In this document: positions 1 through 10,890 of the stretch, in pieces
How positions within the stretch are numbered: the first letter of the stretch is position 1
Layout of the letters: every line of letters starts with the position of its first letter
Origin: a virus
Reading direction: 5' to 3' (one strand)
DNA: 31,225 nt
IMG/VR virus record: IMGVR_UViG_3300033182_000531
Location: 1 to 31,225 of that record
Program-made: the position numbers and the translations under genes
Notes under the pieces: generated by a model
The model's input: the letters and a program-made list of their open reading frames with translations, nothing else
Databases searched by the model: none
What the model was told of the DNA's origin: nothing

Positions 1-2952
1 CTTGCTCAGTCATACTCTTCAACATCAGATATTTTAAACGTTGACACTGCATCTCTGTCAGCACAAGCAAGAGGAGATTTCCATGGATTTGTTGCCTCTG
101 GTATGGTTCTTAAGGGTCAATCAAGTGGAGCACAAGCAACAATTAATAATGTAAGACTTATTTCAGATTTGTCTGCAACACTTATTGGAAGTTACTATAT
201 TCCAAATCCAAATAATGTAAACTTCCCCAAATTTGAAACAGGAACCAAAGTATTTACTTTGATTAATGACCCAGATAATAATCCAGATCTCGCAACTACA
301 ATTGCCGAGGAATCATTTACATCTGCTGGAACTTTAGAAACTGTTCAAGAAAATATTATTTCAATTAGAAATGCTAGAGTTGAACTTAAACAGGAATTTC
401 AGGAAAGAAACGTAAGTAGAGAGCTTGGAACAGAAACACTTAATTCAAGAATAGTTTCTGAACAAACTAGAAGGCAAGGGGTCCATTTTTGGTATGATCC
501 ACTTGCACAATCTTTCTTGGTCGAAGATGAAACAGGTGTCTTCATGACTAGTTGTGATGTTTTCTTTAGATCTAAAGATGACATGGATATTCCTGTTGTC
601 TTCCAACTGAGAACCATGGAGGGTGGTTTCCCAACACCAAGAATTTTACCATTCTCTGAAATTGTTTTGGATCCAGATGATGTTCAAACTTCTTCAGATG
701 GATCTGTTGCTACTAATATTCAATTTAAAGCACCAGTTTATCTTGAAGGTGGCAAAGAATATGCTATTTGTTTAGCATCTAACTCAACCAAATATAGTGT
801 CTATATTTCTAGAGTTGGTGAAAACGATCTTTTATCTGATACATTCATTTCAAACCAACCAACACTTGGATCTCTGTTCAAGTCACAGAATGCTTCTACA
901 TGGGAACCAAGTCAATGGGAGGATCTTAAGTTTACTCTTTATAGGGCAGATTTTGTTGAAAATGGAAGTGTTGAATTCTATAGTCCAGAGTTGACTGAAG
1001 GTAACAGTCAAATTCCAACATTGCTTCCTAATCCAATTAATCTTACTTCTAGACAAGTTAGAGTTGGTCTTGGAACAACAGTTGCTGATGTTTATGAAAT
1101 CGGTAATACTTTCTTCCAGGAAGGAACGAATGCAACTGGTGATCTCGTAGGAACTGCAGGAACTGCTACAGGTAATCTCACAATTACTAATGCAGGAATT
1201 GGATACACTCCTCTTGACGGCAACCAAACCTTTAGTGGAGTAAATCTTGTAACTCTCTCTGGAAATGGTAGAGGTGCTACTGCTGATATTACTATTAACA
1301 GTGGTTCTATTGTTGCAGGTGGAGCTACTATTGTAAATGGTGGTTTTGGATATCAAGTTGGAGACGTTGTTGGTATTAATACGATTGGTGTTGCAACTCT
1401 TGGTAGAAATGCAAGATTGACTATTCCAGGCATTGGTCAAACTAGTGAACTTATCCTCAACAATGTTCAAGGTGAATTTGTTGTTGGTGCAGCAAAAACT
1501 CTGTTCTTCTTCAATAGTTCTGGCATTTCGACAGAACTTAATTCCTCCGGTGCTGCTGGACTTGGAACTGGTGGAGATGTTCAGATATCTAATATCAAGG
1601 TTGACACTGATGGTCTTCACATCAAAGTCAATCATCAAAATCATGGAATGTATTTTGCAAACAACCAGGTCAAGATTTCTGGAATTACACCTGACGTAAA
1701 AGCAACCACTCTCTCTGTAGAGTATCCTGCTGATTCAACTGATGGAATTTCTGTAAACCAGGCATCTAGTTTTACCACTTTTGAAAATGTCGGAGTCGGA
1801 ACAACTAACGTTGGATTACTCATTATTGGTGATGAAGTTATTGAATACACAAATGTCAATGGAAACACCATTGGTGGTGACATCACAAGGGGAGCAAATT
1901 CAAAATCATATCCAGTTGGAACCCCTGTTCAAAAATATGAATTTGGTGGAATTAGTTTGAATAGAATCAATAGAACTCATGATCTAGGTGACACAACAGA
2001 ATCTGATCAGTTTACCTTCGATTCTTATAAAATTAAATTGGATACAAGTTCAACTACTGGAACTGATAGAAGCACTGACGTTGGTTTCCCCAAACTCTAC
2101 GTCAATAAAACCAGATCTTCTGGTGGATATCATGTGAAGGCAACACAAAACATTCCATATGATCTCATCACACCAAATGTTCAAACTCTGAACGTTCCTG
2201 GAACTGTAATAACTGCAGAACTTAGAACCACTAGCTCGAAGAGTTTCAGTGGAACAGAGATCCCATATGTTGATCAGGGATTTGATGATATCATACTTAA
2301 TCAAAAGAATTATTTTGATTCTCCAAGAATGATTGCATCTAAGATTAATGAAGATGCACAACTAACCACCATTCCTGGATCTAAATCAATGAACATGAGA
2401 CTTTTCTTGAATACAACAGATTCAAGAATCAGTCCTGTCTTGGATGGTCAAAGAGTTAGTGCTATCCTCACCTCAAATAGAGTGAATGATGTGATTACAG
2501 ATTATGCGACAGATCCTAGAGTTGATTCTCCATTAGAAGATCCTACAGCATGTCAATATGTGTCTAAGGAGATTACTTTAGAGAATCCTGCATCTTCAAT
2601 TAAGATTATTGTATCTGCTCACATTAATGAAGATGCTGATATTAGAGCATTGTATGCGATTAATAATAAAGAGGGTCAAGATCCAATCTTCACACCATTC
2701 CCAGGTTATTCTAATCTGAATAATAGAGGTGGAATTATTAATCCTGAGGATAGTAATGGACTTCCTGACAGTTTTGTGGTAAAATCAAATTCTTATGTTT
2801 TTGATGCATATCAAACTGACTATAAGGAGTATACGTTCACTATTGATCAGTTACCCTCCTTTAGAAATTATAGAATTAAGTTGAATCTTACATCTAAGTC
2901 GCAATGTTATGTTCCTAAAATTAGAGAGTTGAGAGTAATTGCTTTAGCATAA
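1..2952 (+). CDS. Large virion structural protein, baseplate/tail associated (5' end outside window)
   Basis: The frame is open from base 1, so this is the C-terminal ~984 residues of a larger protein; the ATG at 103 is internal. It is rich in beta-strand-type sequence with many Gly, Thr, Ser and Asn. A block around bases 480-960 (a DPLAQSF motif, then FRTMEGGFPTP-like and YLEGGKEYAI stretches) is typical of very large structural proteins in T4-like cyanophages. Repeat modules shared with other virion genes of this window occur at 88-170 (SGAQA type), 1171-1400 (GIGYTP type) and 1780-1940 (IIGDEVIEYT type). It lies just upstream of the neck genes, where T4 has baseplate wedge and fibre genes, so a baseplate or tail-fibre role is inferred. 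I cannot assign a T4 number. Start and N-terminal domains are not visible. Confidence 0.8.
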   Translation, partial: LAQSYSSTSDILNVDTASLSAQARGDFHGFVASGMVLKGQSSGAQATINNVRLISDLSATLIGSYYIPNPNNVNFPKFETGTKVFTLINDPDNNPDLATTIAEESFTSAGTLETVQENIISIRNARVELKQEFQERNVSRELGTETLNSRIVSEQTRRQGVHFWYDPLAQSFLVEDETGVFMTSCDVFFRSKDDMDIPVVFQLRTMEGGFPTPRILPFSEIVLDPDDVQTSSDGSVATNIQFKAPVYLEGGKEYAICLASNSTKYSVYISRVGENDLLSDTFISNQPTLGSLFKSQNASTWEPSQWEDLKFTLYRADFVENGSVEFYSPELTEGNSQIPTLLPNPINLTSRQVRVGLGTTVADVYEIGNTFFQEGTNATGDLVGTAGTATGNLTITNAGIGYTPLDGNQTFSGVNLVTLSGNGRGATADITINSGSIVAGGATIVNGGFGYQVGDVVGINTIGVATLGRNARLTIPGIGQTSELILNNVQGEFVVGAAKTLFFFNSSGISTELNSSGAAGLGTGGDVQISNIKVDTDGLHIKVNHQNHGMYFANNQVKISGITPDVKATTLSVEYPADSTDGISVNQASSFTTFENVGVGTTNVGLLIIGDEVIEYTNVNGNTIGGDITRGANSKSYPVGTPVQKYEFGGISLNRINRTHDLGDTTESDQFTFDSYKIKLDTSSTTGTDRSTDVGFPKLYVNKTRSSGGYHVKATQNIPYDLITPNVQTLNVPGTVITAELRTTSSKSFSGTEIPYVDQGFDDIILNQKNYFDSPRMIASKINEDAQLTTIPGSKSMNMRLFLNTTDSRISPVLDGQRVSAILTSNRVNDVITDYATDPRVDSPLEDPTACQYVSKEITLENPASSIKIIVSAHINEDADIRALYAINNKEGQDPIFTPFPGYSNLNNRGGIINPEDSNGLPDSFVVKSNSYVFDAYQTDYKEYTFTIDQLPSFRNYRIKLNLTSKSQCYVPKIRELRVIALA

Positions 2953-2953
2953 T

Positions 2954-3178
2954 ATGGAATTTTATGAAATGGAAGGTCATAAGGATCTCGCAAGAGATCC
3001 TGTGACAAATTCAATAGTTAATGTAAATAAACTTGAACATCAACAGTATCTCTCAACCCGTGAGGTTAAATCTAAAGAGAAGCAAAAAGAACAGACAATT
3101 GAGAAAGAACTTGCTAATGTAAAGGATGACATTAACGAAATTAAATCATTACTAAAGGAGTTACTAAATGGATCCTGA
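2954..3178 (+). CDS. Small conserved cyanophage protein with C-terminal coiled coil
   Basis: A 74-aa protein starting one base after the stop of the large structural gene, which suggests translational coupling. The N-terminal half is polar and carries a HKDLARDP-like motif. The C-terminal half (about residues 38-72) is Lys/Glu-rich with heptad-like spacing of I and L, as in a short coiled coil. It overlaps the next gene by 11 bases. Small proteins of this kind sit between the large structural protein and gp13 in T4-like cyanophages. No function is recognised; a small baseplate or assembly factor is a guess from position. Confidence 0.7.
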   Translation: MEFYEMEGHKDLARDPVTNSIVNVNKLEHQQYLSTREVKSKEKQKEQTIEKELANVKDDINEIKSLLKELLNGS

Positions 3179-3350
3179 CACAATCGAACTAAAGAATCTA
3201 TCTAAAAGTTTTGCATATCAACAGATTGCAACTGATATAGATAATTGTAATGATAGTGACATGCTTAAAAATATCGCAAAATCTTTTGCAAAACTTTATT
3301 ATAAACAGCAAGAAACCATGCAAGTAATAGGTATTCCAGATGGCAACTAA
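3168..3350 (+). CDS. Small conserved hypothetical protein
   Basis: A 60-aa protein, probably helical, beginning MDPDTIELKNLSKSF and containing a second NIAKSF stretch around residue 35, so the two halves may be a weak internal repeat (LSKSFAYQQ against IAKSFAKLY). It overlaps the gene before and the gene after by 11 bases each, which is the tightly packed layout of translated late genes. No enzymatic motif is present. Function unknown; position suggests a minor virion or assembly component. Confidence 0.6.
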   Translation: MDPDTIELKNLSKSFAYQQIATDIDNCNDSDMLKNIAKSFAKLYYKQQETMQVIGIPDGN

Positions 3351-3720
3351 TAACGTAACGTTCGACCCAGATTCTGGAGTTCCCTTTGGAGTAAATATGA
3401 CCATCTATGGTGGGTCAGACTTCAAACAAAATTTGAACGTTAAAACAACATCAAATAGTAATTTTGATCTGACTAGTTACACTGGGTCGGCAGCAATGTC
3501 CAAAAGTGTTGCTGTTGGTGCTACACTAGGAATTACTACATCATTTACTGTTGGATTTACTAGTGCCTTTGACGGTACAATGAGTATTTCACTAACTGAT
3601 ACTCAAACCAGAAATTTAACAGAGGGTAGATATGTTTATGATGTATTAGTTACTCTTGGATCAACAACATATCCATTGACCCGCGGAAATGTTTATGTTT
3701 ACAGTCCAGTTTCTTCTTGA
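3340..3720 (+). CDS. Small beta-rich virion protein
   Basis: A 126-aa protein with alternating polar and hydrophobic residues throughout, few charged residues, and a C-terminal pattern (EGRYVYDVLV, then a strand ending VYVYSP) like that of small beta-sandwich domains in phage baseplate or tail adaptor proteins. It overlaps the previous gene by 11 bases. The stop at 3718-3720 is followed at once by a late promoter box for gp13. The beta-sandwich reading is from sequence character only; the exact family is not recognised. Confidence 0.65.
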   Translation: MATNNVTFDPDSGVPFGVNMTIYGGSDFKQNLNVKTTSNSNFDLTSYTGSAAMSKSVAVGATLGITTSFTVGFTSAFDGTMSISLTDTQTRNLTEGRYVYDVLVTLGSTTYPLTRGNVYVYSPVSS

Positions 3721-3721
3721 C

Positions 3722-3729
3722 CCTAAATA
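3722..3729 (+). promoter_or_regulatory. Late promoter box for gp13
   Basis: CCTAAATA matches the T4-type late promoter core (NNTAAATA) read by host RNA polymerase carrying gp55. It lies 23 bases before the gp13 ATG, in a 32-base gap. Confidence 0.6.
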
Positions 3730-3752
3730 CACTTAGGAAACTTGTGGAATAA

Positions 3753-4598
3753 ATGGCACAACCAGCAAGTAGAACAGATTTAATAAACTATTGTAAAAGG
3801 CAACTAGGGGCTCCTGTCCTGGAGATTAATATTGCTGATGAGCAAGTAGATGACTTGGTGGATGATGCTCTTCAAATTTTTCATGAAAGAGATTATGATG
3901 GAGTATCCCAAACATTTCTAAAATATAAACTAACTCAAGAGGATATTGATAGAGGTAGAGCTAGAGGGGGAAGTACCTCTGCAGGAATAACAACCACTAC
4001 AAATACCGACACCATTAATGGTTCTACAATTACATTTTCTTTTGAAGAAAATAGTAATTATCTGAAGGTTCCACCTGAAGTTCTTGGTGTAAATAAGATA
4101 TTTAAGTTTGATGGATCAAACACTGTAACAAATAATATGTTCAGTGTAAAATATCAGTTATTTCTCAATGATATTTACTATTGGGGATCAACTGAAATTT
4201 TAACTTATGCAATGACAAAACGATATCTTGAAGATATTGATTTTGCACTGAGTACTGAAAAGATGATTAGATTTAATCAGAGATCTGATAGATTATATCT
4301 TGATATAGATTGGGGATCTGCCACAAAAGATGACTACATTATCATCGATTGCTATCGTTTGTTAGATCCAAATACTCATACAAGAGTTTGGAATGATTCA
4401 TTCTTAAAACGATATTTGACTGCTCTAATGAAGAGACAGTGGGGTCAGAACTTAATCAAATTCCAAGGGGTCAAACTACCTGGTGGAATTGAACTTAATG
4501 GCAGACAGATTTATGATGATGCTGAAAGAGAGTTGCAGATAATTAGAGAACAAATGTCTAATACATATGAACTTCCACCTTACGATATGATAGGTTGA
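3753..4598 (+). CDS. gp13: Neck protein gp13 (head completion)
   Basis: A 281-aa protein (T4 gp13 is about 309) with the N-terminal pattern of the cyanophage gp13 family: a short helix (RTDLINYCKRQLGAP), then an acidic stretch (DEQVDDLVDDALQIFHERDYDG). In T4, gp13 and gp14 form the neck rings that close the filled head at the portal vertex and receive the tail. The gene is followed four bases later by gp14, so the two are surely co-translated. The late box at 3722-3729 serves them. Assignment rests on sequence recognition plus order 13-14-15-16-17. Confidence 0.9.
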   Translation: MAQPASRTDLINYCKRQLGAPVLEINIADEQVDDLVDDALQIFHERDYDGVSQTFLKYKLTQEDIDRGRARGGSTSAGITTTTNTDTINGSTITFSFEENSNYLKVPPEVLGVNKIFKFDGSNTVTNNMFSVKYQLFLNDIYYWGSTEILTYAMTKRYLEDIDFALSTEKMIRFNQRSDRLYLDIDWGSATKDDYIIIDCYRLLDPNTHTRVWNDSFLKRYLTALMKRQWGQNLIKFQGVKLPGGIELNGRQIYDDAERELQIIREQMSNTYELPPYDMIG

Positions 4599-4602
4599 TA
4601 TC

Positions 4603-6054
4603 ATGGTATTAAATCCGTATTTTACACAAGGAACCTCTGGTGAACAGAATCTGGTTCAAGATTTAATAAATGAGCAACTGAGAACGTATGGTGTAGAAAT
4701 ATTTTATCTGCCCAGAAAATACCTGACAGAGAATACTGTCATAAGAGAAGTTGTTCAATCTAAATTTGATTTAGCATTGCCCCTTGAGGCATATGTCGAT
4801 AATTATGATGAATATTCTGGTGCAGGAAATCTTCTTTCAAAGTTTGGAATTCAATCTCAAGATGAAGTTAGATTGATTATCTCCAGAGAGAGATTTGAAA
4901 ATTATATTACTCCTTTGATTCAAGATCAAGCAAACGTAAAACTATCGACCAGACCTAAAGGTGGAGATCTTATTTGGTTTCCTCTTGACGATAGAATTTA
5001 TGAAATCAAAGATATTGAGTATGCAAAACCATATTATCAATTACAAAATCTCTACGTTTATGAGTTGTATTGCGAACTCTTCCGTCTTGAGGATGAAGTT
5101 ATCGCAACTGGTATTGAAGACATCGATAATAACCTCATCGGTGAAGAGTATGATGGACTTACTGAAGATGGAATCAACACCATTCAAGGTCCGACACAGA
5201 CACTTACATTGGTTGGTGCAGCTGTCACTGCTACTGCTGGTGCTGCAATCTTCAATGGTGGTGTAAGGTTCTTTACTGTTACTAATAGAGGTGGTGGTTA
5301 CAGTCAGATTCCAACAGTTGGTGTTACTTCTGCTCCTTCAGGAGGAACTACAGCAGTCGGAGTTGCCACTATGATTGGTGGTATCAATGTTTGTAACTTG
5401 AATGCTAATCCAAAACTACAATCAGTACAGGCAGTAAATGTTGTTAACTCTGGTGCAGGGTACACTGTAGCACCAGGAGTTATATTTTCCAATGGTGGCA
5501 CTAGTGGTGCAGGTGCTGCTGCTACAGCAACTATCGGTGATGGTGTTGTTGGTATTATTACCATTACATCTGGTGGTGGAGGATATACAGAGGCACCAAC
5601 CGTCACGTTTACTAATGAAGTATTTGAAACGGGAGTAACCACTGCATCTGCTGTTGCATATCCAATTGTAAGTGCTGCTGGAACTATTTCTGCGATTCAC
5701 CTTTCAAATACGGGTGTTGGATATTCTGTTGCACCTACACTTGTTATTGGAAATCCAGAAAGTTCTGGTTCTGGAACATTCCAGTTTAATGAAATTGTAA
5801 CTGGATCTTCTAGTGGAACAACAGCAAGAGTCAGAGTTTGGAATTCTGAGACAAACACTCTTGAGGTTGGATCTGTCTCTGGTGAATTTAGTCGTGGAGA
5901 AACAATTACAGGAGCTACATCTGGTGCATCATATGCAATGAGAACAGTTGATGTACAACCAGCAGATGATGGATTTGCTGATAATATCAATATTGAAACT
6001 GAAGCAGATGCTATCTTAGATTTCTCTGAACAGAATCCATTTGGCATTCCCTAA
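4603..6054 (+). CDS. gp14: Neck protein gp14 with long beta-repeat extension
   Basis: The N-terminal ~200 residues are the gp14 neck family (NPYFTQGTSGEQNLVQDLI near the start, then YGVEIFYLPRKY). gp14 forms the neck collar above the portal with gp13. At 483 aa it is nearly twice T4 gp14 (about 256). The extra part, roughly residues 205-455, is low in charge and contains four GxGYxxxP motifs at residues 230, 284, 324 and 371, then two SG(A/T) modules near residues 390-450 (TGSSSGTTARV and TGATSGASYAM). The same module types occur in the large structural protein (bases 1-2952) and the fibre protein (7558-10890), so this neck probably carries an elaborate surface decoration. The start ATG lies four bases after the gp13 stop. 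Confidence 0.9.
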   Translation: MVLNPYFTQGTSGEQNLVQDLINEQLRTYGVEIFYLPRKYLTENTVIREVVQSKFDLALPLEAYVDNYDEYSGAGNLLSKFGIQSQDEVRLIISRERFENYITPLIQDQANVKLSTRPKGGDLIWFPLDDRIYEIKDIEYAKPYYQLQNLYVYELYCELFRLEDEVIATGIEDIDNNLIGEEYDGLTEDGINTIQGPTQTLTLVGAAVTATAGAAIFNGGVRFFTVTNRGGGYSQIPTVGVTSAPSGGTTAVGVATMIGGINVCNLNANPKLQSVQAVNVVNSGAGYTVAPGVIFSNGGTSGAGAAATATIGDGVVGIITITSGGGGYTEAPTVTFTNEVFETGVTTASAVAYPIVSAAGTISAIHLSNTGVGYSVAPTLVIGNPESSGSGTFQFNEIVTGSSSGTTARVRVWNSETNTLEVGSVSGEFSRGETITGATSGASYAMRTVDVQPADDGFADNINIETEADAILDFSEQNPFGIP

Positions 6055-6057
6055 ATA
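6050..6057 (+). promoter_or_regulatory. Late promoter box for gp15, containing the gp14 stop codon
   Basis: CCTAAATA fits the late consensus. The TAA at 6052-6054 within it is the gp14 stop. It lies 35 bases before the gp15 ATG; AGGA at 6083-6086 is the likely ribosome binding site. Confidence 0.6.
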
Positions 6058-6092
6058 GAATTACTTAATGGTAAGGCATTGTAGGATTAGAC

Positions 6093-7094
6093 ATGTTTGA
6101 GTATTTTTACAACGAAATTTTGAGGAGAACCATTATATCTTTTGGAACCCTCTTTAATGACATTAGCATTAAGCACAAAGATTCTTCTGATGATGTTGCC
6201 AGTGTTATAAAGATCCCCTTAGCATATGGTCCTACTCAAAAGTTTCTGGCAAGAATAAACCAATCACCTGATCTGAATAAACCATTTGCCATCACTTTGC
6301 CGAGGATGTCATTTGAGTTTACTGGTCTTACTTACGATCCTACTAGAAAAGTAACGACTACTCAAACTTTTATTGTTAAAGATCCTAATGATGGATCTGA
6401 GACCAAAAAGCAATACATGCCAGTTCCATATAATATGCAATTTGAGTTGTCAATCATGACCAAATTGAATGATGATGCTCTTCAAATTGTAGAACAAATT
6501 TTACCATACTTTCAACCAGCATATAATCTCACTGTTCAGTTGGTTGAAACAATTCAAGAAAAAAGAGATATTCCTGTGGTGTTAGAAAACATCACTATGC
6601 AAGATGACTATGAAGGTGATTTTTCTAGCAGGAGAGTTCTTCTTTATACTTTAAGGTTTACAGCAAAAACTTACCTGTTCGGTCCTACTACTTCTGCAAG
6701 CAAGGATATTATCAAGAAGGCAACTATCAATTATCGTACAGGTGTAGATTCATCAAATACGCAAAGAGAGGTTACTTATTCTGTCACTCCAAGGGCAATC
6801 AAGAACTACGATGGAGATGTTGCAACTCAACTTACTAGTGATATTACAGTCAGTACGAAAACATTCGACGTTGATGATGGAAGCACACTGACTGCTGATT
6901 CTTATATTGTCATTGGTGAAGAGCAAATGTATATTAAATCCATTAGTGGAAATAAAATTACAGTCAGACGTGGTGAAGATAGTACCACAGCAACTGCTCA
7001 CGTTGGGGGTGCTGCGATTGGTAGAATCACTGCTGCTGATAATGCACTTATTGAGACGGGAGATGATTTTGGATTTGATGGTAGTACGTTCTGA
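6093..7094 (+). CDS. gp15: Proximal tail sheath stabiliser gp15, with C-terminal extra module
   Basis: The N-terminal ~215 residues match the gp15 family of T4-like phages (FEYFYNEILRRTIISFGTLF, then IPLAYGPTQKFLAR). In T4, gp15 caps the finished tail as a hexamer, holds the sheath, and joins the tail to the neck. Here the protein has 333 aa against 272 in T4. The additional C-terminal part (about residues 255-312, with IGEEQMYI, SGNKITV and RRG) closely resembles a module in the large structural protein at 1780-1940. The ATG is preceded by AGGA at 6083-6086. The stop overlaps the gp16 start by one base (TGATG), a usual sign of coupled translation. Confidence 0.9.
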   Translation: MFEYFYNEILRRTIISFGTLFNDISIKHKDSSDDVASVIKIPLAYGPTQKFLARINQSPDLNKPFAITLPRMSFEFTGLTYDPTRKVTTTQTFIVKDPNDGSETKKQYMPVPYNMQFELSIMTKLNDDALQIVEQILPYFQPAYNLTVQLVETIQEKRDIPVVLENITMQDDYEGDFSSRRVLLYTLRFTAKTYLFGPTTSASKDIIKKATINYRTGVDSSNTQREVTYSVTPRAIKNYDGDVATQLTSDITVSTKTFDVDDGSTLTADSYIVIGEEQMYIKSISGNKITVRRGEDSTTATAHVGGAAIGRITAADNALIETGDDFGFDGSTF

Positions 7095-7513
7095 TGTCTA
7101 AATTTGATGAGTTGAATAATACCTTTAATACCTCTGATGATCTTATTCAACCAGAGGTGGTAGAAAAGAAGATTGAAAAAGTAAAAGAAGGTATTGACGA
7201 TATTAAAAAAGATTATGAATATACTAGAGGTAATCTTTACTCTATCATTGAGAAAGGACAAGAGGCATTGAATGGTGTTCTTGAACTTGCTCAAGAAAGT
7301 GAAATGCCAAGGGCATATGAGGTTGCAGGTCAATTAATTAAAAACGTTGCAGATGCAACAGATAAATTGCTAGATTTGCAAAAGAAATTAAAAGATGTTG
7401 AAGCAGAGGAAAAGGTTAAAGGACCATCTACAGTTAATAATGCTTTGTTTGTCGGATCCACAGCAGATTTAGCAAAACTATTGAAAGACGGACTTAAGGA
7501 AGAACCTAAATAA
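7094..7513 (+). CDS. gp16: Small terminase subunit gp16
   Basis: A 139-aa, almost wholly helical, charged protein with heptad-like repeats (residues 22-60 and 85-120), as expected for the small terminase, which forms a ring, recognises concatemeric phage DNA and stimulates gp17. T4 gp16 is 164 aa. The cyanophage family pattern is clear (YEYTRGNLYSIIEKGQEAL). In T4 gene 16 is directly followed by 17; here about 7.5 kb of accessory virion genes plus an HNH gene separate the two subunits, as is common in T4-like cyanophages. It overlaps gp15 by one base. Confidence 0.88.
   Translation: MSKFDELNNTFNTSDDLIQPEVVEKKIEKVKEGIDDIKKDYEYTRGNLYSIIEKGQEALNGVLELAQESEMPRAYEVAGQLIKNVADATDKLLDLQKKLKDVEAEEKVKGPSTVNNALFVGSTADLAKLLKDGLKEEPK
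7505..7512 (+). promoter_or_regulatory. Late promoter box overlapping the gp16 stop
   Basis: CCTAAATA matches the late core and shares its last two bases with the gp16 stop codon (7511-7513). It lies 46 bases ahead of the fibre-like gene at 7558. Confidence 0.5.
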
Positions 7514-7557
7514 TTGGAAAGGGAGAGAAATCCCAAAGTACAAAGGTTACTAATAAA

Positions 7558-10500
7558 ATGTCCAAGGACTTGCCCTCATATGAGGAGTTTGCTGAAGACA
7601 ACAGCAATCTTCCCTCAATAGATGATTATATTACAGAAGAGAATGCAGAGGAACTCCCTTCTGTAGAGGATTATATTGTAGAAGAAGTAGTAGAAGAAGG
7701 AATACAAACAATTGAAGATGCAAATGGTGAATCATTTGCTGAGGTAAAAGATATTGTTCCACCTTGGCCAGAGTTGGTCAAAATGGTCAACGATGTCAGG
7801 GCAGATATACCTGACATTCCAGAAATTAAATACTATGATAAAGAACTTGAGGAACTTGCTGAACAAATCAGTAATCTTCCAGAAGTCAAGTATTATGATA
7901 GAGAAGTAGAAGCAATATGTGACCAGGTTGACCTTATAAGACAGCAGGTAAAAGATTTACCAGAAGTCAAATACTATGATGAGCAAGTTGATGCTATTGA
8001 AGATAGAATTGACTCTCTTCAAACTGATGTTGCAAATTTACCTGAAGTCAAGTATTACGACGCAGAGATAGAAGCAATTTGTGAAGCAATAGATGCAGTC
8101 AAGGTATCGATCCCTAAGTTTCCTAAGTGGATCAATGAAGTAAATGAGGTCCCTGATTTTTCATGGATCGGTAAAACATTTAGTGTCATTGATGATGACT
8201 TTGTAAAAGTCAACGATACAATTGAATCTTTAAAGGATAGTGTAAGACTTGATCTTAAGAAAATTTCAGAAGATAATGAAGTTACACATTTTGAAAATAG
8301 AGTTCAATTTGGCACTGAAGTAAAAGATCTTGATAATAAATTAGGAGAAGAAAAAGATAAGATTTGGAAAGAACTTCGTGATTCTTCCATGAAAATATGG
8401 GAGTATCACAAGGAATTCAAAGATGATGATCGTAAGTTAAAGAAGCAAATTCTTGGAGAATATAATAAGTTAAAAGAAAGTATAAAAGCAGAACTTAAAG
8501 AAGTAAGTCAGGAAAGTGTCAAAACTGATGAACTTCTTCTTAAGTATTTTACTGAGTTAAGAGAGGAGATTACAAATCTTCCTGAGGTAAAATATTATGA
8601 TGAAGATATTGATTATGTAAAATCAGACATTAAAGAACTTTTTGATCTTGTCAAAACTATTAAACAAGAGCAAAAAGAACTTCAAGATATTCAAGAAGGT
8701 TTACTCAATGAACCTCCATCAACACCAGAATCTGTAGATGGTCAAAGTGATCCATTAACTCCAATGGATCAAAAATTTGCAACACTTGATGATCTTGCAA
8801 GTCATTACAGATTATTCATTAATAGAATTCAACAACAGATTTCTACCATTGGTGGTGGTGGTGCTGGATTCATCAAAGACCTTGATGATGTCACCTTCAA
8901 TGAATCAACTGGTGAAAATCAACTTCTCATTTATAATGGATCTAAGTGGGTAGGTATTGCTAGCACTGCTTTAGGTTCTGGTGGTGGAGGAGGGTCCTCC
9001 GTTGGTGCTGCTGGAACATGGGCAGTAAATTCTGCTGGTATTCATACTACTAAGAATATTGGTGTTGGCACAACTGCTAGAAGTGATTATGCACTCTATG
9101 TTGAAGGTGATCAATATGTTGACGGAAACATCACTGTTGGTGGAACAATTACATATGAAGATGTCAAAAACGTAGATTCTCTTGGTATTGTCACTGCAAG
9201 AACTGGTGTTGATGTATTGGCAGGTGGTATTAATGTAGTTGGAATTTCAACCATTAGTGTTGCTGGAGTAGGAACTGTTAGTGTTGGTGTCGGAACTACT
9301 GCACTATTAGTTGATGGTGATGCAAGAGTCATCGGAATCTTAACAGTTGGTAGAGGGTCGGTTACTATTGATGGTGACAACAATACTATTACATCTGGTA
9401 TTGTTACTATTACAAATTCTACTATTAGTATTGGTGATAACGTTACTATTAATTCTTCTGCGACAGGTATTAACTCAGCACCTAATGTTCTTTATGTTGC
9501 AAAAGACGGAAGTGATGATAATAACGGCACATCCATTGATAATGCAAAATTAACTATTGCAAGTGCGGTTTCTATTGCTCAGTCAGGAACGACTATCAAA
9601 GTTCTCTCTGGTAATTATGTAGAATCTAATCCAATTGAACTTCCCGCATTTACTGCTGTCGTTGGTGATGATTTAAGAACAGTTAAGGTTCTTCCAAGCA
9701 CAACAGACAGTGATATCTTCCACGTAAACAAAGGATGTAAACTTGCAAACATGACTTTCTCTGGTCATGTCGCACCCGCAGCAGCAGTTGCTTTCCCATC
9801 AGCAGGAGCAACCAATGTTGGTGGTGGAAAGTGGAAAGGTCCATATATTCAAAACTGTACCAGTGACACCACAACTGGAACTGGTATCTATATTGATGGT
9901 GACAAGGCAGTAAAAACAAAATCAATGAACGTTGACGCATTCACCCAATATAATCAGGGTGGTGTTGGAGTTGCTGTTACTAATGAGGGATATGCTCAGT
10001 TAGTTTCTGTGTTTACTATTTGTTGTGATAAAGCAATTACGGTTCATAAGGGTGGTCAAGCAGATCTAGCAAATAGTAATTGTAGTTTTGGAACTCAAGG
10101 ATTAGTTGCTGATGGAGTCAGTCCTGAGCAGTTTACTGGAATTGTGACTGCATCTGCTGCCGCATCTCAAGATAACGTCACTATTAATGTTGGTGCGGTG
10201 ACAACTAGACCTTATGATGGTCAGGTGGTTTATTTTGATGAGTTGTATAAGTCCATCGAAACCATTACCGTTGGGTCTGGTGGAACTGGATATACCCAAG
10301 CACCAACAGTTACTATTGATGCACCTACAGGTCCAAGTGGAGAAACTGCATCTGCTTTTGCCACCATTGAAAATGGTTCTGTGACAGAGATTTCTATCAT
10401 TAGTAGTGGAAGTCAGTACACCTCTACACCTTCAATCACTATCTCTGGACCTCAAAGTGGAATCAACACTGCGACTGCAACTGCCAATATGGCAGATACT

Positions 10501-10890
10501 TATTACACAATAAATAGTGCTACACCCATCGTTTCTGGAATTACAACATTAACACTTGCAGAAAACTTAATTAATACGGTTGGGGTTGGTTCTACTGCTT
10601 ACTTCTTCCAACAAAGTAAGATCGTTGCAAGTTCTCACACATTTGAATATATCGGTTCTGGTAACACTATTACGTTAGCAACACCAAAACGAGGTGGAGT
10701 TACTGTTCAAGCAAATGAAGTTGTAAGTCAAAATGGTGGAAGAGTAATATATACCAGCACGGACCAAGCAGGTAACTTCAGAATTGGTGATGATCTTCAG
10801 ATCAACCAAGCAACAGGAACTATCAGTGGAAGAGCATTTTCCAAGAGTTTGTTCTCAGAAATAACACCCTTTATCTTAGCACTCAGTTAA
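7558..10890 (+). CDS. Long fibre-like virion protein: coiled coil, triple-beta and beta-helix
   Basis: An 1110-aa protein in three parts. The acidic N-terminus (residues 1-55) has three LPSxx(D/E) repeats. Residues 85-380 are helical with five PE(V/I)KYYD motifs at 88-94, 108-114, 135-141, 162-168 and 342-348, spaced 20, 27, 27 and 180 residues, followed by charged coiled coil. From about residue 430 a Gly-rich linker leads to beta-rich sequence with GVGTTA and YALYVEGD motifs, like the trimeric fibre repeats of phage tail fibres. VLYVAKDGSDDNNGT then opens what looks like a pectin-lyase-type right-handed beta-helix (about residues 645-860). A GYTxxP module lies near 905-980. These are hallmarks of a trimeric appendage, perhaps a whisker or side fibre involved in host contact. 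The first ATG after the late box is used. Confidence 0.82.
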   Translation: MSKDLPSYEEFAEDNSNLPSIDDYITEENAEELPSVEDYIVEEVVEEGIQTIEDANGESFAEVKDIVPPWPELVKMVNDVRADIPDIPEIKYYDKELEELAEQISNLPEVKYYDREVEAICDQVDLIRQQVKDLPEVKYYDEQVDAIEDRIDSLQTDVANLPEVKYYDAEIEAICEAIDAVKVSIPKFPKWINEVNEVPDFSWIGKTFSVIDDDFVKVNDTIESLKDSVRLDLKKISEDNEVTHFENRVQFGTEVKDLDNKLGEEKDKIWKELRDSSMKIWEYHKEFKDDDRKLKKQILGEYNKLKESIKAELKEVSQESVKTDELLLKYFTELREEITNLPEVKYYDEDIDYVKSDIKELFDLVKTIKQEQKELQDIQEGLLNEPPSTPESVDGQSDPLTPMDQKFATLDDLASHYRLFINRIQQQISTIGGGGAGFIKDLDDVTFNESTGENQLLIYNGSKWVGIASTALGSGGGGGSSVGAAGTWAVNSAGIHTTKNIGVGTTARSDYALYVEGDQYVDGNITVGGTITYEDVKNVDSLGIVTARTGVDVLAGGINVVGISTISVAGVGTVSVGVGTTALLVDGDARVIGILTVGRGSVTIDGDNNTITSGIVTITNSTISIGDNVTINSSATGINSAPNVLYVAKDGSDDNNGTSIDNAKLTIASAVSIAQSGTTIKVLSGNYVESNPIELPAFTAVVGDDLRTVKVLPSTTDSDIFHVNKGCKLANMTFSGHVAPAAAVAFPSAGATNVGGGKWKGPYIQNCTSDTTTGTGIYIDGDKAVKTKSMNVDAFTQYNQGGVGVAVTNEGYAQLVSVFTICCDKAITVHKGGQADLANSNCSFGTQGLVADGVSPEQFTGIVTASAAASQDNVTINVGAVTTRPYDGQVVYFDELYKSIETITVGSGGTGYTQAPTVTIDAPTGPSGETASAFATIENGSVTEISIISSGSQYTSTPSITISGPQSGINTATATANMADTYYTINSATPIVSGITTLTLAENLINTVGVGSTAYFFQQSKIVASSHTFEYIGSGNTITLATPKRGGVTVQANEVVSQNGGRVIYTSTDQAGNFRIGDDLQINQATGTISGRAFSKSLFSEITPFILALS
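7819..8061 (+). repeat. Tandem PEVKYYD repeats in the fibre-like protein
   Basis: Four in-frame copies encoding PE(I/V)KYYD followed by a helical segment, with repeat lengths of 20, 27 and 27 residues; a fifth copy lies apart at about 8581-8601. The copies differ at synonymous sites (for example TACTATGAT against TATTACGAC), so they are old rather than recent duplications. They probably form a segmented coiled coil with YYD-marked breaks. Confidence 0.8.

Follow-up and report, generated by a model that had tools for sequence, protein, structure and literature searches.

A GYxxxP beta-repeat in the gp14 neck protein and a fibre-like protein of a cyanophage-like virus, with probable diverged copies in a large structural protein

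The closest parallel to the repeat described here is provided by the Ig-like domains of tailed phages, which, according to PMC7602432 and the survey cited there as ref. 89, are used in tail proteins, tail fibres and the initiators of baseplate wedges and are thought to aid adhesion. They too are add-on beta domains spread across virion surface proteins of several classes; the GYxxxP unit differs from them in its length of about 40 residues, its GYxxxP turn, and its occurrence in arrays of at least two. We did not file the units as Ig-like because they had no Ig-like Pfam match: Pfam at E up to 1, Ig-like families included, gave no match to the units of gp14, the fibre, or the large protein, and Ig-like families were also absent at E up to 1 from the P-SSM4 gp7 and Yut2 sheath stretches. 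The BACON repeats of crAss-like phages are, by their description, another case of a domain repeated in tandem within a phage protein. T4 gp14 (PF11649; PDB 9lu4 and 9mkb) has a stopper core in common with the gp14 studied here, and its 256 residues lack the unit. The cyanophage-type gp14 family, phrog_460, is catalogued as a family of whole proteins rather than as a mobile repeat. The Laminin_G_3 or ConA-like lectin domain of S-SSM7-type gp14 is an insert in the array, a separate fold that is absent from the window. In the literature searched, which included few subscription papers, the motif was absent in four spellings, and no description of the repeat was among the papers listed.

The window (the whole stretch of DNA analysed, 31,225 bases) is a virus contig with a T4-like structural gene cluster, and its gene order and proteins match those of marine cyanophages, Bellamy and S-SM2 among them. 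Three of its proteins, all encoded on the plus strand, are considered here. The large structural protein is represented by its C-terminal 983 residues (1–2952; phrog_358, E 7e-242); its full length in relatives is about 2110 residues (2110–2122), and its counterparts in other phages sit between gp8 and gp13. The neck protein gp14 (head-closure Hc2; 4603–6054, 483 residues), host of a four-unit array, matched PF11649 (E 3.4e-27; 95.9 bits against a cut-off of 25) and phrog_460 (E 1.1e-121). The fibre-like protein (7558–10890, 1110 residues; phrog_17885 tail fiber, E 3.8e-145) has a conserved N-terminal trunk and a variable C-terminus. The tail sheath stabiliser gp15 (6093–7094, 333 residues) has a Pfam match that stops at residue 247, and its C-terminal extension past that residue adjoins the extended gp14.

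The unit would be a homologous beta-repeat of about 37–44 residues, in which strand a (ITITN) is followed by the turn G-x-G-Y-T-x-x-P, strand b (PTVTI), a Gly-rich loop, and strand c (ATATAI); a tight turn after strand c would lead into strand a of the next unit. The predicted secondary structure of gp14 had the order strand-turn-strand-loop-strand in each unit. Searches of Pfam, NCBIfam, and PDB sequences with the unit returned nothing usable, and because no solved structure resembles it by sequence, its fold is a predicted one. Eight units were cut from the window. Four are in gp14: N1 (GGGYSQIPTV, 5269–5391), N2 (GAGYTVAPGV, 5431–5553), N3 (GGGYTEAPTV, 5554–5691), and N4 (GVGYSVAPTL, 5692–5814). 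Two are in the fibre: F1 (GTGYTQAPTV, 10261–10386) and F2 (GSQYTSTPSI, 10387–10509). The remaining two, L1 (GIGYTPLDG, 1171–1314) and L2 (GFGYQVGDVV, 1315–1437), are diverged and lie in the large protein. An earlier note on this DNA had placed the module in these three proteins, and its coordinates were correct. Profiles were built for each protein from its own units.

The gp14 profile of four units scored the two fibre units at 25.9 and 12.8 bits, whereas the best of 1000 composition-matched shuffles of the fibre segment reached 4.9. Conversely, the fibre profile scored gp14 unit 3 at 19.2 bits and unit 2 at 14.5, against a shuffle maximum of 7.6; units 4 and 1 scored 6.3 and 5.8 bits, within the shuffle range. 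None of the 24 other open reading frames of the window that were scored (27 in all) exceeded 4.9 bits with the gp14 or fibre profiles. The phrog_460 profile matched both the fibre units (residues 897–982, E 6e-7, at F1) and unit-bearing sheaths; thus the gp14 family evidently contains the units. That the resemblance arose by convergence, from a Gly/Thr/Ala-rich beta composition, would be consistent with the similar composition of the units and with the failure of HMM searches to tell the large-protein units from shuffles. We nevertheless consider convergence improbable, since the gp14–fibre scores lay far above 1000 shuffles, the large-protein profile-profile score exceeded its column-shuffle control, and the key positions are widely kept. 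Over 244 phage and bacterial units, gathered by an iterated profile and therefore favoured by selection to appear conserved, conservation was 93% for the first G, 83% for the second G, 94% for Y, and 88% for P; V or I occupied the strand after the proline in 94%.

The large protein required a different comparison. Over positions 1171–1437 it scored 4.4 bits with the gp14 profile, below the shuffle maximum of 9.7, and 6.8 bits, below a maximum of 9.4, with a 70-unit profile made from the units of 11 other phages plus the window; scores with the fibre and joint gp14–fibre profiles were also within the shuffle range. HMM comparison thus did not support L1 and L2 as ordinary members of the family, even with the 70-unit profile. 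L1 reads GYTPLDG and L2 reads GYQVGD, and the proline spacing of GYxxxP is missing in both. An alignment of 19 large-protein homologues showed that unit 1 is mostly GYTPxDG or close to it and unit 2 GYxVGDV, which explains why the sequence profiles miss them. When the 19 homologues were compared with the module by hhalign, a single unit scored 25.2, against a null maximum of 15.7 in 200 column-shuffled controls. Two tandem units, aligned in the correct order and register, scored 38.9 with a probability of 93%, whereas the 200 controls reached at most 17.4. The large-protein units are thus probably a diverged variant of the GYxxxP repeat. The model of the large protein was mediocre (mean pLDDT 65.5), with a best PDB match of Z 4.7 and all PDB matches below Z 5; in BFVD fold searches the gp14 and large-protein models shared a few matches, e.g., H8ZN85_2 and A0A516M3L8. 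An additional hint of a connection comes from the gp14 array of contig L267, in which a stretch with the YVVGD pattern was read by eye beside ordinary GYxxxP units.

The earlier note held that unrelated scaffolds had taken up one module. This was borne out for gp14 (four units) and the fibre (two units); for the large protein it is plausible through profile-profile comparison, and a shared module there is probable. The counter-proposal that the similarity is only generic Gly/Thr composition was rejected for the gp14–fibre pair by the shuffles; by HMM the large protein stays inside the shuffle range. Overall, we judge the GYxxxP repeat to be real, ancient, and uncatalogued, firmly established in gp14 and the fibre and probable in the large protein.

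The gp14 protein was modelled with AlphaFold2 from 88 sequences (mean pLDDT 74.1, overall pTM 0.50). Its stopper core (residues 1–165, 4603–5097) superimposed on T4 gp14 (9lu4_M) with Z 9.8 and rmsd 3.8 over 99 aligned residues. A tether (residues 163–195) had pLDDT below 50, and residue blocks within 201–450 had mean values of 72–93. Domain 3 of eIF2-gamma (8phv_D) matched between model residues 199 and 453, with 67 aligned residues, Z 6.5, and rmsd 2.5, which is under the Z 8 caution line. From this match, residues 197–204 (5191–5214), as strand 1, and residues 393–453 (5779–5961), an SGATA-type segment, probably form an EF-Tu/eIF2-gamma domain 3-like barrel with the units inserted between them. 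Among the fold matches listed for the gp14 model, none was specific to the array (residues 205–392). The protein ends in a conserved tail (5980–6051), in which N478, P479, F480, and G481 were invariant in the 88 sequences.

Comparison with gp14 proteins that lack units shows how the array is placed. In S-PM2 gp14 (292 residues, no units), the stopper is joined directly to the segment GEIVTG...SGTEAEVKSW, the counterpart of 393–453, and to the NPFG tail, which accords with the barrel reading. In T4 gp14, also without units, ESSPFDN aligns to the NPFG tail. By these alignments the gp14 array is a clean insert, for which the S-PM2-type protein gives the empty site. T4 gp14 residues 178–256 are disordered in the in vitro-assembled neck and contact gp15 in the virion, according to PMC12270204. 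The array thus separates the gate-forming core from the region which, in T4, docks on the tail. Nesting in a barrel does not seem to be general, because the fibre flanks were unlike the gp14 barrel (hhalign 7.8, against at most 17.8 in 100 null comparisons), which led us to reject a gp14-type barrel there, and the large-protein flanks were weakly alike (23.0, null maximum 17.7, probability 40%).

Array length in gp14 was variable. Among 424 gp14 open reading frames with a near-complete N-domain, which were fetched with chosen queries so that the counts are not prevalences, 82 had no unit (T4 among them), 12 had three, 233 four, 73 five, and 24 six. Close relatives of the window gp14 had four units in every case (80/80). 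Nine to ten units were found in five N-truncated gp14 frames (L271, L240, L242, L231, and L272), on contigs fetched by similarity to the C-terminus of the window fibre; the stretches that flank the expansion in the L271 protein share 77% and 71% identity with the window gp14. In S-SSM7 gp14 (762 residues; L098, 704–2992), a LamG-like domain lies between GYxxxP units; its Laminin_G_3 match (E 7.6e-6, 26.6 bits) is just under the Pfam cut-off of 27.6. The gp14 proteins of S-SSM7 relatives (L456–L535) are of comparable length. Relatives share the N-terminal trunk of the fibre, and most of them have a different C-terminal part in its place. All 62 fibre frames that combined a window-like trunk with a unit-bearing C-terminus had two units; these came from loci fetched with the module-bearing fibre C-terminus. 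Recent change thus affects the length of the gp14 array and the fibre C-terminus as a whole.

We then compared the units of 18 contigs that carry a four-unit gp14 and a two-unit fibre. For 104 of the 108 units, a figure inflated by near-duplicates in the set, the nearest neighbour occupied the same position in a different genome; for the other four it was a unit at another position in another genome, and for none (0/108) was it in the same genome. Mean identity between gp14 and fibre units was 0.357 within genomes and 0.352 between them. Recombination within a genome, by which the earlier note had explained the units in several genes of one phage, was thus not supported: with no own-genome nearest units and no within-genome excess of identity, there has been no recent gp14–fibre copying, and any such exchange is ancient. 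The presence of the unit in several genes of one genome is what recent copying would predict, and the gp14 tree provides a further argument against it. In a tree of 82 gp14 N-domains, three array states (none, about four, and long) needed only 3 changes, compared with a mean of 27.6 after shuffling. Recent copying between genes is therefore highly improbable. The tree came from a quick search, and long branches meet in it (the S-PM2-type and S-SSM7-type clades); for that reason the sister position of those two clades was not relied on.

A profile search of other cyanophages, a check proposed in the earlier note, located units in gp14, the gp7 region, fibres, and sheath. With the six-unit gp14 plus fibre profile at E up to 0.001, 64 matches were found; they came from every one of the 12 named phage records except T4. 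By our assignment of places to genes from the annotation, 25 of the matches were in gp14, 26 in gp7 or giant baseplate-region proteins (two of them in the S-PM2 hypothetical protein S-PM2d088), 6 in fibres, 2 in sheath, 4 in a protein of the gp9–gp8 interval, and 1 in a hypothetical protein adjacent to the baseplate hub. Giant open frames of the gp7 region were seen in P-SSM4 (57144–79082 of its record, 7312 residues, 9 unit matches) and Syn33 (53719–72849, 6376 residues, 10 unit matches). At E up to 1e-5, the fibre unit pair matched 312 of 50,697 phage records. A sheath version of the unit was present in 17 Stenotrophomonas records and 1 Xanthomonas record of T4-like phages (including L087, 1662–3635); in the one Stenotrophomonas sheath that was aligned, the units form a loop insert relative to cyanophage and T4 sheaths.

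Bacterial sheath loci with units came from Shinella, Pseudanabaena, Ectothiorhodospira, and Cyanobium. All 39 bacterial contigs fetched with the sheath pair had units, as expected from their selection. Ten proteins from bacterial contigs were searched against Pfam: four were phage sheaths, and one each a gp6 baseplate wedge, a beta-helix protein, a SusD protein, and an Ig-like/PATR surface protein; two had no match. The Pedobacter SusD-family protein (L553, 2636–4552) has two units. With a two-unit profile, the Ensifer family had matches in 9 of 151 genomes, the centre genome included, and the Cyanobium family in 1 of 151, this being the centre genome, which had been chosen for having the unit. 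Because the Cyanobium-family match was confined to that centre genome, there is no sign that a host domain is being mimicked. The units were confined to virion and surface proteins in the genomes examined. Single units in untruncated frames occurred only where the frame was shorter than 140 residues. Among 36 clusters of at least two units in untruncated bacterial frames, 28 were even-numbered and 8 odd; 17 of the 28 consisted of just two units, leaving 11 against 8 without them, and an even-number rule is not claimed.

The insertion of units in loops or near ends, the arrays of at least two, the expansion, the exposed host proteins, the lectin-fold partner, and the bacterial surface homologues together make up the pattern of an exposed add-on domain. 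Our preferred reading, to which we give a probability of about 0.6, is that the unit is an ancient, promiscuous beta-repeat of virion surfaces, a copy-variable add-on that offers exposed surface for weak contacts. The repeat would fold independently as a tandem array of at least two units, and repeated insertions of such arrays, all of them ancient, would have placed them in loops or close to the termini of exposed virion proteins. The gp14 array follows the stopper core and precedes the C-terminal tail; it would lie within the small barrel-like domain and on a flexible tether, and a hexameric ring would carry 24 units around the neck–tail joint. In the fibre, the two units lie between the variable middle region and the C-terminus. 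The arrays would probably serve as an exposed surface that can be expanded and makes weak contacts with the host or with other particle surfaces, in the manner of Ig-like domains on other phages. We infer exposure on the particle, independent folding (from the predicted model), and adhesion.

The main rival to weak adhesion, the favoured function, is a structural role in which the array would pad or brace the neck and fibre as a spacer or stabiliser and bind nothing outside the particle. In its favour, the array is flanked by the stopper and the conserved tail, four units are kept in all 80 close relatives, and in T4 the C-terminal region of gp14 docks on gp15 (PMC12270204), so that an insert could strengthen the head–tail joint. 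A spacer is harder to reconcile with array lengths from 0 to about 10 units beside a tail that stays, and with the occurrence of units close to the ends of fibres, in loops of sheaths, and in SusD and Ig-like surface proteins of bacteria, where there is no common joint to brace. We regard bracing as possible, though unlikely. An extension of the adhesion reading, which we offer as speculative, is that the units form an uncatalogued, phage-centred family of recognition domains for the neck, baseplate, sheath, and fibre. The cyanophage neck would then be an adhesion collar of gp14 arrays (0 to about 10 units per subunit, with a lectin-fold insert in the S-SSM7 type), and its binding to surface glycans or to other particles would not depend on the tail fibres. 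If the reading as an add-on domain is right, repeats filed piecemeal under the gp14, gp7, sheath, and fibre families would belong to a single mobile domain that has neither name nor model, many cross-family annotation matches would be explained, and the neck of abundant marine phages would stand out as a contact surface so far unexplored. Natural comparisons are offered by the empty site of the S-PM2 type and by the relatives with 9–10 units. We consider the repeat to be of moderate interest, and of higher interest should the neck array prove to bind.

The fibre also contains a repeat of another kind: five coding repeats around LPEVKYYD are present in its N-terminal region (7813–8624).
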